From a virus, in the IMG/VR virus record IMGVR_UViG_3300049596_000225, positions 1 through 21,663 of that record: DNA of 21,663 bases. The stretch is one strand, 5' to 3'. Shown here in pieces: positions 10,364-18,469 of the stretch (positions are counted from its first letter, which is position 1; every line of letters starts with the position of its first letter). The notes beneath the pieces are model-generated. The model was not told the DNA's origin, made no database searches, and saw only the letters and a list, made by a program, of their open reading frames with translations. A program made the position numbers and the translations under genes.

Positions 10364-10394
10364 TTTGTTTATTTCGTGTTTATTTGTATCTTTG
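10364..10394 (+). promoter_or_regulatory. Consensus Bacteroidota promoter
   Basis: TTTG (10364-10367), a 19-base spacer and TATCTTTG (10387-10394) match the consensus perfectly. The downstream AAAAGACAAAT matches the promoter at 8-15 base for base. The methyltransferase start codons at 10404/10407 begin 9-12 bases after the -7, so the leader is only a few nt. This makes the next three genes an independently transcribed unit. Confidence 0.8.
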
Positions 10395-10406
10395 AAAAGA
10401 CAAATG

Positions 10407-11732
10407 ATGAAACACGGTAGTTTATTTTCGGGAATTGGAGGATTTGATTTAGCATCTGAATGGATGGGATGGGAAAATGTTTTCCATTGCGAGTGGAACG
10501 AATTTGGTAAAAAAGTGTTGCACCATTATTGGCCGAACGCAGAATCATTTGATGACATTACAAAAACCGACTTTACAAAATATGCAAACAAAATTGACAT
10601 TCTCACAGGAGGATTCCCATGCCAACCCTATTCCCAAGCAGGACAACGCAAAGGAAAAGAAGATGAACGCCATTTGTGGCCCCAGATGCTTCGAGCAATA
10701 CGGGAGATTAAACCAAAGTACATCGTGGGGGAAAATGTTTTTGGGTTGCTTAATTGGAATGGAGGGATGGTATTCGACGAGGTGCATTCTGACTTGGAAC
10801 TTGAGGGGTACGAAGTCCAGGCCGTGGTTATACCTGCGGCGGCGGTCAATGCCCCACACGGAAGGGATAGAGTATGGTTCGTCGCTTCCCACACCGATAG
10901 CAGGGGATTGGAAGGGTCAACGGAGGTCGGACGGAACGGCATCAATGTTGAGTGGGAAAGCAAGTTTGGGATTATTACCAACACCAAATTCAAGTCCGAG
11001 GGAAGTGACGGAGGAACAAACGATGAAACGGAAGGAAACATACGGAGGGGAAACGAGGGCAATGTATTTGGAACATTACGCGGTGATGGGAATGCTACCA
11101 ACCCCGAATACTTGCGATGCGAACAATGCCAACAACAAGGACAATCACGATGTGAAAAGGGGATATTTGAGGGGGTTTGCATCTATGGGATTACTACCGA
11201 CACCAACAGCATCAGCAATCGGGGAAAGTCAAAGCAATCACCAGCTGCACATAAGCAAGGAAGGGGTGGCGAAACCAATACGGGAATCGGGAATGAAGGG
11301 GAACAGCAATTTATACGCGACACTACAAGTGAGGGGCTTGATTCCAACACCGACAGCGTGCGATTACAACACACCGAGGAAACCAGAAACATTCAAGAAA
11401 GCACAAGAACGACACAAAGCGAAGGGAGTGAACTTACAGAATCCATTGAAACAAATGGCAGCGATGGGAATGTTACCGACACCACAAGCCCAGGAGGGGG
11501 AAAAGATAACGGGTTTGGAAAATCAAGATTCAATGACCAAACGAGTTCGACAAATAGTTGGGACAACTTCCCAACTCAATCCCCGATTTGTGGCGGAGAT
11601 GATGGGCTTCCCACCGAATTGGACGGAATTACCTTTTCAAAATGGAGAAACGAATCCATAAAAGCATACGGGAACGCGATAGTCCCACAAGTGGCATACC
11701 AAATTTTCAAAGCAATACAAGAAACGATATGA
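10407..11732 (+). CDS. C5-cytosine DNA methyltransferase
   Basis: This 441-residue enzyme transfers a methyl group from SAM to cytosine C5 in phage DNA, probably to evade host restriction. Motif I is SLFSGIGGFDLA (5-16), motif IV GGFPCQPYSQAG with Cys72, motif VI VGENVFG (107-113) and motif VIII NAPHGRDRVWFVA (148-160). Motif X-like GNAIVPQ is at 422-428. Residues about 161-370, where the target-recognition domain should be, are low-complexity in this frame and rich in Gly, Thr, Asn, Ser and Glu. The +1 frame is open across the same DNA and looks more like a recognition domain. A start at 10365 would precede the promoter -7 element. ATGA-coupled to the next gene. Confidence 0.85.
   Translation: MKHGSLFSGIGGFDLASEWMGWENVFHCEWNEFGKKVLHHYWPNAESFDDITKTDFTKYANKIDILTGGFPCQPYSQAGQRKGKEDERHLWPQMLRAIREIKPKYIVGENVFGLLNWNGGMVFDEVHSDLELEGYEVQAVVIPAAAVNAPHGRDRVWFVASHTDSRGLEGSTEVGRNGINVEWESKFGIITNTKFKSEGSDGGTNDETEGNIRRGNEGNVFGTLRGDGNATNPEYLRCEQCQQQGQSRCEKGIFEGVCIYGITTDTNSISNRGKSKQSPAAHKQGRGGETNTGIGNEGEQQFIRDTTSEGLDSNTDSVRLQHTEETRNIQESTRTTQSEGSELTESIETNGSDGNVTDTTSPGGGKDNGFGKSRFNDQTSSTNSWDNFPTQSPICGGDDGLPTELDGITFSKWRNESIKAYGNAIVPQVAYQIFKAIQETI
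10477..11661 (+). CDS. Overlapping +1 frame inside the methyltransferase
   Basis: This 394-codon frame has no stop and lies within the methyltransferase gene in the +1 frame. From about residue 135 it reads like a C5-methyltransferase recognition region: LPTPIAGDWKG, then further GLLPTP, GMLPTP, GLLPTP, GLIPTP and GMLPTP units at 10975, 11095, 11194, 11341 and 11473, then LNPRFVAEMMGFPPNWTEL. Its first 130 codons, which overlap motifs I-VIII of the other frame, match nothing I recognise. The third frame is closed by many stops (for example 10898, 11006, 11084). Expression might come from +1 frameshifting near 10880-10890, from internal initiation, or not at all. Coordinates mark the open frame, not a proven start. 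Confidence 0.4.
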   Translation: MFSIASGTNLVKKCCTIIGRTQNHLMTLQKPTLQNMQTKLTFSQEDSHANPIPKQDNAKEKKMNAICGPRCFEQYGRLNQSTSWGKMFLGCLIGMEGWYSTRCILTWNLRGTKSRPWLYLRRRSMPHTEGIEYGSSLPTPIAGDWKGQRRSDGTASMLSGKASLGLLPTPNSSPREVTEEQTMKRKETYGGETRAMYLEHYAVMGMLPTPNTCDANNANNKDNHDVKRGYLRGFASMGLLPTPTASAIGESQSNHQLHISKEGVAKPIRESGMKGNSNLYATLQVRGLIPTPTACDYNTPRKPETFKKAQERHKAKGVNLQNPLKQMAAMGMLPTPQAQEGEKITGLENQDSMTKRVRQIVGTTSQLNPRFVAEMMGFPPNWTELPFQNGETNP

Positions 11733-12952: not shown

Positions 12953-13692
12953 ATGATTGAATCAAAAACCATATTAGTACCCACATCGCTTAAGGATGTA
13001 AAGTTGCATCAAATGTTGGCGTATCAAGGTCTTAAAGATGACATGGAAGATACCCAACGCCAATTGGAAGCGGTATCAATTTTTTGTGAGTTGACAATGA
13101 CCGAGGTTATGGCCATGCCGTTTGATGTATTGCAAAAGGCCGTGGAACGCATCACATTGATGTTGACCGAACAACCGACATTTACGCCTAGGTTCAAAAT
13201 GGATGGCGTGGAATACGGGTTTATTCCAAACTTGGATGATATGTCGGTGGGTGAGTTTATAGACATTGAAACATACACAAAGGAAACGCACGATTTGTGG
13301 AAGGTGATGAGTGTGTTGTATCGCCCCGTTACCCATAGCGGACAGAACGGAAGATATGAAATCGCACCCTATTCGGCAAACCTTGTCACGGGTTTCAAGG
13401 ACTTAGATTGCAACACCGCATTTGGGGCCATGGTTTTTTTTTGGAGTTTAGGAATCGACTTGTTGAATTCTATCCAGAAGTATTTGGAGGTGGAGATGGC
13501 ACCGCAGATGAAAACCGCCTTACCAAAAAATGGGGATGGTTTGGAATGGTCTATCGACTCGCTAACCGAAATTTCCTACAATTGGAAAATGTCTATACTA
13601 AAACCATTCACACCGCTTTGTACTGGACCGCTTACGAAAGCGACATTGCGGAAATGGAACAAAAAATTATTAAGCAAAGTTACAAGCGATGA
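12953..13692 (+). CDS. Tail assembly chaperone-like protein, -1 frameshift product
   Basis: A -1 slip on T_TTT_TTT (13435-13441) joins the first 163 residues to a frame open to 13692. This gives a 246-residue product, the equivalent of the lambda gpGT fusion. The second-frame part is protein-like: NRLTKKWGWFGMVYRLANRN, then IHTALYWTAYESDIAEMEQKIIKQSYKR, which resembles the T domain of chaperone pairs in related phages as I know them. Its stop forms the ATGA overlap with the gene at 13689 that is typical of this genome. This supports real translation. The third frame has stops at 13449 and 13464. Confidence 0.65.
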
Positions 13693-13699
13693 TAAATAA
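12953..13699 (+). CDS. Tail assembly chaperone-like protein, zero-frame product
   Basis: This 248-residue product probably assists tail assembly around the tape measure, as G proteins do in lambda-like phages. The first 160 residues hold the conserved part as I know it from Bacteroidota phages: a regulator-like N-terminus, GVEYGFIPNLDDMSVGEF and a GAMVFFWSLG block. At 13434-13442 there are nine T in a row. In the zero frame the last 85 residues are WSLGIDLLNSIQKYLEV and a basic tail. A -1 slip gives a different 83-residue ending (see the next entry). The stop at 13697-13699 overlaps the next gene by 11 bases, unlike the usual 4-base junctions. Confidence 0.7.
   Translation: MIESKTILVPTSLKDVKLHQMLAYQGLKDDMEDTQRQLEAVSIFCELTMTEVMAMPFDVLQKAVERITLMLTEQPTFTPRFKMDGVEYGFIPNLDDMSVGEFIDIETYTKETHDLWKVMSVLYRPVTHSGQNGRYEIAPYSANLVTGFKDLDCNTAFGAMVFFWSLGIDLLNSIQKYLEVEMAPQMKTALPKNGDGLEWSIDSLTEISYNWKMSILKPFTPLCTGPLTKATLRKWNKKLLSKVTSDDK
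13434..13442 (+). other. Probable -1 slippery site, T9
   Basis: Nine T lie across zero-frame codons GTT TTT TTT TGG. The heptamer T_TTT_TTT (13435-13441) matches the X_XXY_YYZ slippery pattern. A sequencing or assembly error in the homopolymer is the main alternative, but both frames remain open past it. Confidence 0.65.
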
Positions 13700-14715: not shown

Positions 14716-15824
14716 GTTTTACATTTACACAACAACCCGCATCCATAGTTGGGGCCAATTCCCCAATCATTTACCAAGCGTTTGAATCCACCAATTTTGC
14801 AAATGCGGGATTCCGTTATGAGTTCAAAGTTTATGTGTGGAGTGGCACGACATCCATTCCCGCAACACCGATTGTAACAATTAACAGATTACCCGACCAA
14901 TATGGAGGTGGAAGGGCGTGGATTGATGTTCACAAAATTGTAACCCAGTACATTACCACCGAGTTTTTGGTGAATGGCACATACAAACCAAACATCGGAA
15001 GCGGTGCAAAACGCGTAGCGGTGAAGTGTCAAGGCATTTGGATAGCGGGGTCAACCGCAGTTATCACTTCCAATTTATCGTTGGCCACAAAGGGTTATTC
15101 GTATACGGCGGAGGGATTCAATGTTGGGGTTTCAAAGTCAGTATTCACGGATAAGACGGCCGTCTATGTGACAAGTGAAACCACCAATGCTTATTTGTGG
15201 TATGATGCAAGTGTGATTACATCCATTACTTGTGGAAGTGCGACGGTGACACCAAACGCGGTCACAACATCCGACCAGGTGTTTCAAGGAATTGAAATCA
15301 AGCAATTAATGACGGCGGGTGCAGTATGGGGTACAAACGCCAATATCACTTTTGTGAAAGCGGGGGATGATGTGGTTATGCCCGTGGTGTTTGATTGCCA
15401 AAATAAGTACGGGCAACAAGATGTGTTATTCCTCAATCGTTACGGGGTTTATGATTCGTACCTTTTTAACGGGGTATCACGCAGAACTTACAATGTGGAA
15501 TCCGAAAAATATAGCCAACCAATTTTCAAACAAGCGGATTTAGCACAATCGTGGAGTTACGGCGTACAGATTGCCACACCATTTTTGCAAAATAGTACGG
15601 AAGTAATGACAGTAAACACGGATTGGATACCCGAGGCGGATGTACCAATTGTTGAACAGATATTTTATTCAACCAATGTATTGATTCTAAGCGGGAATAA
15701 TGTGTTATCAACAAGGGTTATCGACACCGCATTTGAGTTCAAGAAAAGGACAAACGAAAAGTTGATCCAATACACCATCCAATTGGAATACAACCAACCT
15801 AAAATAAACAAGATTGTACGATGA
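14712..15824 (+). CDS. Phage structural protein, 370 aa
   Basis: This 370-residue protein is rich in Thr, Asn, Val and aromatics, with alternating beta strands and no membrane segment. It opens with FTFTQQPASIVGANSPIIY and holds an FRYEFKVYVWSGTTSIPATP strand pair. ATGA overlaps on both sides place it in the tail operon. Beta-rich tail or baseplate proteins of Bacteroidota phages look similar, though I cannot tell whether it is a tube, a hub or a fibre component. Confidence 0.6.
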   Translation: MSFTFTQQPASIVGANSPIIYQAFESTNFANAGFRYEFKVYVWSGTTSIPATPIVTINRLPDQYGGGRAWIDVHKIVTQYITTEFLVNGTYKPNIGSGAKRVAVKCQGIWIAGSTAVITSNLSLATKGYSYTAEGFNVGVSKSVFTDKTAVYVTSETTNAYLWYDASVITSITCGSATVTPNAVTTSDQVFQGIEIKQLMTAGAVWGTNANITFVKAGDDVVMPVVFDCQNKYGQQDVLFLNRYGVYDSYLFNGVSRRTYNVESEKYSQPIFKQADLAQSWSYGVQIATPFLQNSTEVMTVNTDWIPEADVPIVEQIFYSTNVLILSGNNVLSTRVIDTAFEFKKRTNEKLIQYTIQLEYNQPKINKIVR

Positions 15825-18469
15825 ACATTCGGTTTAGTTTGGAAATTGAGGGGATACCCGTGGATTTATTTAATGACGAAAGTGTTGAATTAAACCGCCA
15901 ATTAAAAGACCTACAAGATTTATCCACCATTTGGACAGATTACACCCAGGCGTTTCAGATACCCGCATCCGAGACCAACAACCAAATCTTTTCGGATTGG
16001 TTTGATGAGAATGTGGTATTGGGTGCGTGGAATCCAAACATTGGGAAGGATGCAACATTATTAATTCATTCTTTGCCAGTGTACACGGGTCGGATTGAGT
16101 TTATTGGGTGCAAGTACAAAGACGGAATCCCGCAATTGTACAATGTCGTGTTTTATGGAACGACCAAAAAGATATTAGACATTTGGGGCGAAACATTATT
16201 GAACCAAGTGGATTGGTCGTCATACAATCACTTTGTTAGTTATGCCAATATTTTATTGTCATGGGATCAAGCGTTATTAAGTGGCGATGTATTGTGGCCA
16301 ATTGCAGATTACAACCAGGGGTGGAGGTATTCCACCATGAAAGGGGTTAATGGTAACATCAGAGATTCAAGGGGTGTTGAGATTGATGATTTACGACCTT
16401 CAATCCGATTGACCGCGATGTTAACCAAAGTGTTTGATGCAGCGGGATACACATTAAGTGGTTCGTTTTTATCGAGACCCGAAATGGATGATGCGTATAT
16501 TTTACCAATGCAAACGGCGGGGCCATTGTACGACCCAGAGTATTTCAAACCAGGCACATTGACATCGTCAAAAAGTCCATTTACATACACACAAAGAACA
16601 TACGGGACGGTAAATTATGATAAAATCATTTACAACACTGTTACATTAAACCCAAGTGGGAACTATAATGCCACCACGGGGATTTATACCGCTAATCGTT
16701 TGGGCAATTATGAGTTTCGTGCTGAATTCAATGTGACATTTGGCGGGGGTGCTTATAACTCAATTAATTTTGCTTATATGCTTAATGGTCGAGTAGTTTC
16801 AACCAAGGCCTACACGACAACAACGGCGGGTGGATTGTTTACCTTTAGTCCACGATTAAAACCAGGTGATGAAATATCATTTGGGTATTTGACATTTTCA
16901 AGTGTTTCAACGGGGGCCGTATACCTTTATTGTTTAGATGCGCCACAAGGTATTGCAGATACCACAGTTCGTTTTGAAGATGCCATGCCACAAATGAAAA
17001 TTAAAGATTTTGTAAATGGCGTGATAAAATCTTTTAACTGCATTTTGATTCCAACGAGTGCAAACACGATTGAGATTCACAATTTGCAAGATTGGTACAA
17101 TGCGGGACCAACCAAAAATTGGTCACCATTTATAAATGTAAAGGACATTGAACATACCAAGTTACCCATTCCAAGCATCGTGTCAATGACACACAAGGAA
17201 TCGGAGTGTTTGGCGAATGAATACTACCGAAACATCAACCGACGGGAATACGGGTCGGTATCGTTTGCCCCCGTTATTGATTACCCAACGGATGCGTTTG
17301 AATTGGAAACCCCGTTCAATGTGATATGTCCACAAATTTTGGATGCGGTTAATGCTAATGGTCAAAGAGTAAGGGCAACGGATTTAAGCATTGCAAGGTT
17401 TATGGATAAGGATGATAAACCAGTTCAACAAGATTTGACCTTGTTTTATTACGGCGGTAAATTTGCCGTTACGGATCAATATTATTTTAACGGAATTCAA
17501 CAACCATTTTTCCCGTTAATGACATCGTATTCCGCTTATCCCACAGTTCAATCAAGTTATTCGATGGCCTTTGGGTTGGAGTATTCTATTAAGGGCGATG
17601 CACCCGTTAACACGATGTATTTGATGTATTGGAACGAATACCTTTCCCGTATGTATTCAACGCAATCAAGGTTGGTTAAAATGACGGGAATCATCCCCGT
17701 GGGGGAATGGTTGAACTTCGCATTGAATGACACCATCGCGATAAGTGGGAATTACTACAAAGTGCAGTCGGTTAAGTATGATATGTTGACCGAGATTGCA
17801 AACCTTGAATTGATTACATACCCCGATGTGGATATCATGTCGTTTACAACTACGGGGCAAAAACCCGTGTTCACCGATGTGGTGGTCAATGTCAACGGCA
17901 AATCATATTTGAACGATTACCCCGTTGCAAAGGGTATCATGAACGCGTATCGTTTTGGAACACAGGATTATTTGGACACGAACCAGGACACGACATTCAA
18001 CCAAAATAGTGTCAGCGACATCGCCCAACAAATGCAGAGTTTACAAGCCATTGTACAATTTAACCAAATCACAATGTATCGCAGTACATTGAGTGGTCCG
18101 TTGGCAACCGATTCAACAATATGGTTAAACATTCCAATGACCAGTCAAGTATCAATCGGGTATGTACAAAACATCACGGCAACCTTGGCACCATCAAAAT
18201 ACATTTGTACCGATGGCGGTCAATACAAGTTCACCGCGATGGTGGAGGCGGAACAATCGGGAAACAAGCATTCCACATTTGCAATTCTTGTTAATGGGAT
18301 TCCCACAACGGGTTACGGGGGTCTTGCAACGGATTATGGCGTGGTGAATTTTAGCACGATTTTAGACCTTTCGCCAACGGATGAAGTAACATTGGCATGG
18401 AAGCCACAAACGGGTGGAAGCCACACAATTTATGTAACCAACGCAAACTTCTTAATACTTAAAAAATGA
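15821..18469 (+). CDS. Large tail protein with C1q-like domains
   Basis: This 882-residue protein is probably a distal tail, hub or receptor-facing component. Residues about 1-250 look like a conserved base (FSLEIEGIPVDLFNDESVELNRQL). About 262-378 resembles a C1q/TNF-like jelly roll: NATTGIYTANRLGNYEF, AYMLNGRVVSTK and KPGDEISFGYLTF. The middle continues as structural beta-rich sequence, and about 745-882 contains a second such fold (DGGQYKFTAMVEAEQSG, FAILVNG, LSPTDEVTLAWK). C1q-like folds often serve trimerisation and ligand binding. Codons in the first fold look different (many GCT), which may reflect later acquisition. No protease or hydrolase motif was seen. Confidence 0.6.
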   Translation: MNIRFSLEIEGIPVDLFNDESVELNRQLKDLQDLSTIWTDYTQAFQIPASETNNQIFSDWFDENVVLGAWNPNIGKDATLLIHSLPVYTGRIEFIGCKYKDGIPQLYNVVFYGTTKKILDIWGETLLNQVDWSSYNHFVSYANILLSWDQALLSGDVLWPIADYNQGWRYSTMKGVNGNIRDSRGVEIDDLRPSIRLTAMLTKVFDAAGYTLSGSFLSRPEMDDAYILPMQTAGPLYDPEYFKPGTLTSSKSPFTYTQRTYGTVNYDKIIYNTVTLNPSGNYNATTGIYTANRLGNYEFRAEFNVTFGGGAYNSINFAYMLNGRVVSTKAYTTTTAGGLFTFSPRLKPGDEISFGYLTFSSVSTGAVYLYCLDAPQGIADTTVRFEDAMPQMKIKDFVNGVIKSFNCILIPTSANTIEIHNLQDWYNAGPTKNWSPFINVKDIEHTKLPIPSIVSMTHKESECLANEYYRNINRREYGSVSFAPVIDYPTDAFELETPFNVICPQILDAVNANGQRVRATDLSIARFMDKDDKPVQQDLTLFYYGGKFAVTDQYYFNGIQQPFFPLMTSYSAYPTVQSSYSMAFGLEYSIKGDAPVNTMYLMYWNEYLSRMYSTQSRLVKMTGIIPVGEWLNFALNDTIAISGNYYKVQSVKYDMLTEIANLELITYPDVDIMSFTTTGQKPVFTDVVVNVNGKSYLNDYPVAKGIMNAYRFGTQDYLDTNQDTTFNQNSVSDIAQQMQSLQAIVQFNQITMYRSTLSGPLATDSTIWLNIPMTSQVSIGYVQNITATLAPSKYICTDGGQYKFTAMVEAEQSGNKHSTFAILVNGIPTTGYGGLATDYGVVNFSTILDLSPTDEVTLAWKPQTGGSHTIYVTNANFLILKK

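Follow-up and report, generated by a model that had tools for sequence, protein, structure and literature searches.

In the well-known tail assembly chaperone pairs, such as that of phage lambda, the unshifted end is short. According to the accessible text of the PRFect paper (PMC10885494), the length N, which we read as the distance from the slip site to the in-frame stop, averages 26 nt in the SEA-PHAGES data and 169 nt in the viral genomes of Atkins et al.; cases were predicted in just two of the 43 genomes whose length N exceeds 51 nt. Detection tools can lose cases with a long unshifted tail. In bacteria, RNA polymerase slippage on nine A's or T's is efficient in vivo, and the dnaX gene of Thermus contains such a run of nine T's (PMC5009743, accessible text). 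In Bacteroidia, programmed shifting in prfB with a Shine-Dalgarno-like element is recorded for 523 of 726 genomes (PMC8710568, accessible text).

The locus described here lies in a viral DNA stretch of 21,663 nt, referred to as the window (IMG/VR record IMGVR_UViG_3300049596_000225). The slip gene carries a run of nine T's (T9), which is the longest homopolymer in the window and its sole T run of seven or more. The first-pass annotation had placed here a programmed -1 frameshift giving two tail chaperone isoforms of nearly equal size, and its reading of the site was exact: the heptamer T_TTT_TTT stands in zero-frame phase, the zero and -1 frames are open for 85 and 83 codons past it, the third frame is stopped at 13449, the -1 frame ends at an ATGA junction and the zero frame overlaps the next ORF by 11 bases (Table 1). 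After a one-base step back at the heptamer the -1 product comprises 163 + 83 = 246 codons, ending in TGA at 13690-13692, and the 248-aa zero frame ends in TAA at 13697-13699. Three T's of the heptamer occupy third codon positions, which are free to change in the zero frame, and in the window the T at 13441 is silent in both frames. The third-frame TAG can be a consequence of the zero-frame Leu together with the Phe-Arg coding of the -1 frame. Both PHROG families matched, phrog_32199 by the zero-frame ORF and phrog_38404 by the -1 segment (E 4.6e-5), are of unknown function, and the next ORF has no PHROG match.

Table 1. Coordinates of the slip gene and of neighbouring features in the window.
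Feature	Position	Strand	Basis and remarks
Zero-frame ORF (G-like product), 248 aa	12953..13699	+	ORF reading; phrog_32199 match, E 5.1e-15
T9 run, slip site	13434..13442	+	Sequence; kept as T9 or longer in the listed protein-based loci
Heptamer T_TTT_TTT, zero-frame phase	13435..13441	+	Sequence
-1 frame, T-like helical segment FFLEFRNRL...KKWGWF...KR	13435..13692	+	Conserved in 68 aligned homologues; phrog_38404
Predicted hairpin, 31 nt, 10 bp	13442..13472	+	Abuts the heptamer; window and L042; role doubtful
Zero-frame tail, 85 codons	13442..13699	+	Overlaps the -1 segment up to 13689
Third-frame stop TAG	13449..13451	+	Sequence
Next ORF, 163 aa	13689..14180	+	ATG at 13689, ATGA junction with the -1 stop
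Tape-measure-like protein, 628 aa	18606..20492	+	PHROGs; context gene

The first-pass annotation had asked for the T run to be checked in related phages, where it is kept. Four protein-based searches, in which the DNA motif was not used, gave 277 loci among the matches listed, some contigs recurring. The site reads [GCA]T9 in 270 of them, L386, L390 and L392 being T10 through the following codon; L146 and L361 have T10 through a TTT codon, and five loci (L079, L134-L137) end before the site. A run of T9 or longer is thus found in register in all 272 site-bearing loci among the matches listed, and the three third-position T's of the heptamer are invariant in the 270 listed loci printed as 10-mers. 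When 80 relatives were taken for reading, three were set aside as partial matches and the other 77 all carried T9. A search with the -1 segment alone returned 80 loci (62 with T9, 17 with T10 and one with T12), every one with the heptamer in register. Upstream of these sites the zero frame is open for at least 158 codons in 77 loci, and for 79, 105 and 111 codons in L448, L442 and L473, respectively; the -1 frame is open for at most 50 codons. In the family's codon usage, only 69% of Phe codons are TTT, and the share of NTT is 17-36% among those for Val, Leu and Ile. Runs of T8 or T10 forcing a single frame were looked for and none was found, the T10 and T12 runs retaining both the heptamer and the two frames.

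For the analysis of the two tails, a cluster set was defined by the motif [not T]T9 + TTTAGG + CGA, 145 open upstream codons, two complete tails and a -1 tail of at least 60 codons. It contains 274 loci, 220 of them unique, in 50 clusters at 75% identity, and omits relatives with TTTAA after the run, T10 relatives with an earlier T and rows cut at contig ends. The -1 segment is the part common to the most distant relatives, with the pattern FFLxFRxRL...KWGWYxSIYxLAxGD... among 68 aligned homologues. In 44 of the 50 cluster representatives, the -1 frame lacks a start codon between its preceding stop and the site, and in none does it have an ATG there, so that the -1 segment is best reached by a slip. 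The window itself has a TTG in its -1 frame 9 codons upstream of the site, which weakens, for the window taken alone, the case that the segment is made only as a fusion. Together, these sequence comparisons support a transition into the -1 frame that is maintained at T9.

The family is large, with at least 600 matching stretches, of which at least 590 are relatives. A tree built from the 50 representatives groups together the seven clusters in which the zero frame is the longer of the two (98/90), and likewise the four clusters with 79-91 codons and a longer -1 frame (100/100); it is rooted at the midpoint only. Among 50,697 phage records, the family is represented by four records of two phages, Nonlabens phages P12024L and P12024S. 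Their two products (L082:3995-4689 and L083:1989-2683) were deposited as separate hypothetical proteins, with the T9 link unannotated; in the P12024L deposit they appear as gp40 and a fragment, gp41. An exact motif search of the genome set found the DNA element in one contig, from a Winogradskyella metagenome-assembled genome, a count that may be low because relatives with other motifs are missed. The two Nonlabens phages and the Winogradskyella contig point to Flavobacteriia as hosts, which for the window itself we infer from these relatives.

Counting from the codon that precedes Phe-Phe, the zero tail reaches at least 55 codons in 47 of the 50 representatives and 28, 19 and 40 codons in the other three. 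In 20 representatives the zero stop falls at codon 58, ~25-31 codons ahead of the -1 stop. Short zero tails are found in the Nonlabens phages, L140, L209 and L256 (28, 19, 40 and 22 codons, respectively), and the long tail is thus not needed everywhere. The 22-codon tail of L256 stands amid a cluster with 79-86 codons and points either to a long tail lost recently or to an error. In L263, which has its T run near position 61, the unshifted frame contains the first helix and then enters a -1-type segment, and a stop comes at 27 codons in the -1 frame; an indel, natural or erroneous, lies past the site, near the end of the stretch. Two products of near-equal size are supported for the window and hold in one group, 7 of the 50 clusters, but not as a general trait of the family, and the short tails go partway towards homologues that keep one frame only, which the first-pass annotation had named as evidence against its own reading.

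The openness of the zero frame was compared with simulations in which the -1 protein was fixed, the first 10 codons were left unchanged, the rest were drawn synonymously by family codon usage, and the zero tail was capped at the -1 length. The zero frame stayed open to the -1 stop in 0.9% of the draws for the window and in 0.1% for the L042 cluster, its nearest kin. The zero tails of the 50 representatives add up to 3224 codons, whereas the 2000 draws averaged 2030 and never exceeded 2293; for single clusters, P is below 0.05 in 29 of the 50 and at least 0.05 in 21, six of which have P of at least 0.2. Over -1 codons 11-50, nine zero-frame stops were counted where 64.4 ± 5.4 were expected (z -10.2, a score that, like the others, overstates the number of independent cases since the clusters share ancestry), and the superclade of the window (seven clusters) has none where 22.9 were expected. 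As controls, the alternative frames upstream of the site gave 738 stops for 749 expected and 699 for 731 (z -1.9 to 1.9), the third frame of the overlap was mildly low (165 for 198.5, z -3.2), and the stretch past the zero stop showed an excess (129 for 111, z +2.9). The 50 clusters had been chosen by the T9 motif.

Silent sites were followed as pairwise differences at fourfold sites within the same codon box. In the superclade of the window these differences drop from 0.376 upstream to 0.085 in the overlap, and the drop extends over the whole tail, whose successive thirds have 0.102, 0.079 and 0.064, against 0.400, 0.398 and 0.335 upstream. The L156/L206 clades fall from 0.282 to 0.040, and the other clades from 0.378 to 0.145, with 0.298 past the zero stop (151 site pairs). 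The expected recovery past the zero stop is absent in L156/L206, with 0 differences in 350 site pairs. A cruder count by codon position gives the same picture in most clusters, L205 and L228 being exceptions in which third-position diversity is lower past the zero stop than before it. The identity of zero-frame residues also exceeds what the -1 frame explains (0.397 vs 0.288 in the superclade of the window and 0.456 vs 0.282 in the 58-codon clusters), but this test was discarded as confounded because its control past the zero stop is likewise raised (0.370 vs 0.261). Given the depletion of stops and the low silent-site variation in the unshifted tail, the shared bases look constrained for two proteins. 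Both frames thus appear to be under purifying constraint over the overlap, as a dual-coded C-terminus, and the long unshifted tail looks selected rather than passive.

Other explanations of the locus differ in which of these observations they leave unaccounted for. Homopolymers are prone to error, and the T run might be suspected of misassembly or of phase variation at the DNA level; such an origin is scarcely conceivable beside a register that is unchanged in every site-bearing listed locus and all 80 loci of the -1-segment search, the deposited genomes of two isolated phages among them, and as far as conservation can tell T9 is a real site and no sequencing slip. It is also very improbable that two overlapping genes, each with its own initiation, exist here without slippage. 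The separate annotation of gp40 and gp41 in the Nonlabens phage (GenBank JQ823123) and the TTG upstream of the window's site would suit such an arrangement, but in the -1 frame start codons before the site are lacking in most representatives and ATG in all, and the third-position T's of the run do not change across the 270 listed loci. The zero tail could instead be a passive by-product, open by chance, with the -1 segment alone being of importance. The depletion of stops taken jointly, the easing of fourfold suppression past the zero stop in the other clades (not in L156/L206) and the recurrence of the zero stop at codon 58 make this quite improbable, even if the short tails, the 21 clusters with P of at least 0.05 and a zero-frame residue identity that in the superclade of the window is raised no more than in the control all fit a passive tail. 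Finally, the zero frame might be kept open for translational coupling, so that unshifted ribosomes end near the start of the next gene, and not for the protein it encodes. In the superclade of the window, the -1 stop has the context CGATGA in six of the seven representatives and AGATGA in one, an in-frame zero stop lies within about ten bases of it, and in the window, where this was checked, the next gene starts at the -1 stop. Coupling nevertheless seems unlikely, as it calls for openness and not for quiet silent sites, and in the 20 codon-58 representatives the zero stop comes well ahead of the -1 stop while the preceding frame is still short of stops.

Regarding the mechanism, the first-pass annotation had proposed a programmed -1 shift of the ribosome. 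The maintained -1 transition at T9 stands, and the ribosomal nature is the part in doubt, since RNA polymerase, too, is known to slip on T9 runs. On balance the shift is most likely ribosomal, at U_UUU_UUU. The alternative, a serious possibility if a somewhat less than probable one, is that an extra base is inserted at T9 by the RNA polymerase of the phage or the host, and T10 transcripts would then be read in the -1 frame; translation of T8 transcripts would enter the third frame and stop after five codons. Polymerase slippage would agree with a run of at least nine in every locus examined, with the lack of a conserved RNA structure 3' of the site and with the rare use of Shine-Dalgarno pairing in Flavobacterium (PMC8710568, accessible text). 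It has to be set against a ribosomal heptamer that is always in phase within the run, the description of tail chaperone shifts as ribosomal (accessible text of PMC5009743) and the persistence in Bacteroidia of programmed shifting aided by Shine-Dalgarno-like elements (accessible text of PMC8710568). Moreover, the length of nine may simply be the sum of seven slip bases and two T's forced by coding, one by the hydrophobic codon before Phe-Phe and the other by a Leu/Phe codon of the -1 frame. T9 was accordingly rejected as proof of polymerase slippage, being non-discriminating when coding can force its first and last T.

The search for a conserved RNA stimulator was negative in the 50 representatives, where the mean folding z-score ranged from -0.63 to 0.13 over six settings; the most favourable of these put 10 of the 50 below -1.5. 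Among 104 thinned sequences, the best four-base stem was 0.135 over the shuffled expectation and formed in 26%, and visual inspection of 60 contexts showed no pairing motif upstream. The hairpin predicted in the window and L042 was rejected as a general stimulator, because its first base directly follows the heptamer and it is not a general feature. As T9 is also a known site of polymerase slippage and no conserved stimulatory RNA was found, the preference for the ribosome over the polymerase is a matter of judgement.

Neither part of the gene matches Pfam or NCBIfam, and the zero-frame profile finds nothing among PDB sequences; clusterin, reached with the -1 profile (E 0.0073), was taken as a chance hit. 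The unshifted form is modelled well up to about residue 180 (mean pLDDT 84.9, pTM 0.70), and its helix 153-189 passes through the site. The -1 segment modelled alone is predicted to be helical (mean pLDDT 78.0, pTM 0.52); the shifted product was folded as two separate parts because it is not read in one frame. The models suggest that the shift would swap one helical end for another. A Foldseek search of the PDB with the zero-frame model gave 28 matches, none at E 0.001 or better, and the best VIA-align Z was 4.9; no PDB chain was found for the -1 model, a result that excludes nothing. In BFVD, the zero-frame model has 35 hits at E 0.001 and the -1 model two, all uncharacterized or unnamed, and the sole hit named as a chaperone is weak (E 0.74). 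Four BFVD entries of 234-267 aa (A0A516L611, A0A6J5SVK3, A0A6J7XA66 and A0A6J5N0W0) are listed for both models, the -1 model matching A0A516L611 strongly (E 3.2e-4) and the other three at E 0.07-0.6; these may be single-frame fusions of the two parts or joined gene calls. Flavobacterium phage 6H gp10 (BFVD E 3.5e-4) was rejected as kin, since none of its six frames is matched by the profile of either part and a stop closes its -1 frame right behind T_TTT_TTC. At that locus (L401:10352-10927, - strand), gp10 ends soon after T_TTT_TTC and a long ORF in another frame continues, the two perhaps being a different chaperone pair.

The tape-measure-like gene is the fifth downstream of the slip gene, not the next. 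Its best PHROGs match is to a virion structural protein (E 4.6e-15), followed by tail length tape measure proteins (E 3.5e-9 and 1e-8), and NCBIfam gave nothing above cut-off. As judged by eye, the order of ORFs after the gene is similar in L241, L268 and L236, with about 160, 175, 370 and 850 aa and then 619-708 aa; the ORFs at the position of the next ORF have 151-163 aa. Just upstream of the tape-measure-like gene, the window encodes an 882-aa protein with a C1q-like domain (15821-18469; Pfam C1q, E 7.2e-6), whose place is taken by an ORF of 774-921 aa in the same three relatives. The tail assembly chaperone named in the first-pass annotation therefore has the architecture and the nearby tape-measure-like gene on its side, but no profile or fold match. 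The sequence is best read as a putative tail assembly chaperone gene of the G/GT type, hitherto unannotated in Bacteroidota phages, whose C-terminus appears to be dual-coded.

Overall, it is quite probable that the gene produces a G/GT-like pair by a one-base slip at T9, with both ends constrained. Unshifted reading would give the 248-aa form, and a one-base backward slip on T9 the 246-aa form; the two would share their first 163 residues and differ in their helical ends. By analogy with phage lambda, the shifted form would provide a T-like domain joining the major tail protein to the tape measure, and the unshifted form would be the more abundant partner. A bolder proposal, which we consider possible but rather doubtful, is that the ~80 codons encode two alternative, independently selected C-terminal domains, that unaided nine-T slippage chooses between them and that the isoforms are made in comparable amounts; the slippage would then possibly be performed by RNA polymerase at a high rate. 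If true, this would be a two-state alternative ending, instead of the usual rare read-on, across a large unannotated family of Bacteroidota phages.

What matters in the G/GT-like pair is that the unshifted end is as long as the shifted one and that both look selected, which would make it a long conserved dual-coded stretch in a phage. In the largely open-access literature searched, no long dual-coded unshifted tail was described for this gene. The window also contains two long overlapping ORFs on the + strand in different frames (10365-11732 and 10477-11661), both matching DNA methyltransferase families. The 455-aa ORF matches the Pfam C5 methylase (E 9.2e-47) and phrog_363 (E 2.7e-71), and the 394-aa ORF matches phrog_1008 (E 4.9e-36) and a Bacteroides phage methyltransferase (96% of the length, 27% identity); from its sequence the pair is a possible second, longer dual-coding case in the same phage.

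Among the systems described, the locus can be compared with that of the Nonlabens phages P12024L and P12024S (Inhavirus), whose gp40/gp41 belong to the same family and have T9 in the same register and a homologous -1 segment, but differ in their zero tail of 28 codons and in being deposited as two hypothetical proteins. With dnaX of Thermus thermophilus it shares a nine-T run inside the coding sequence; in dnaX there are stops nearby in both other frames, whereas here one of them encodes an 83-codon segment, and the transcriptional slippage described for those nine T's (PMC5009743, accessible text) is a candidate mechanism here. No sequence kinship with G/GT of phage lambda was detected. The locus resembles that pair in the -1 transition late in the upstream ORF, which fuses a second segment to it, and in the tape-measure-like gene downstream; it differs from lambda in having T9 as its slip site, in lying five genes away from the tape-measure-like gene and in an unshifted frame that extends beyond the shifted one and itself appears constrained.
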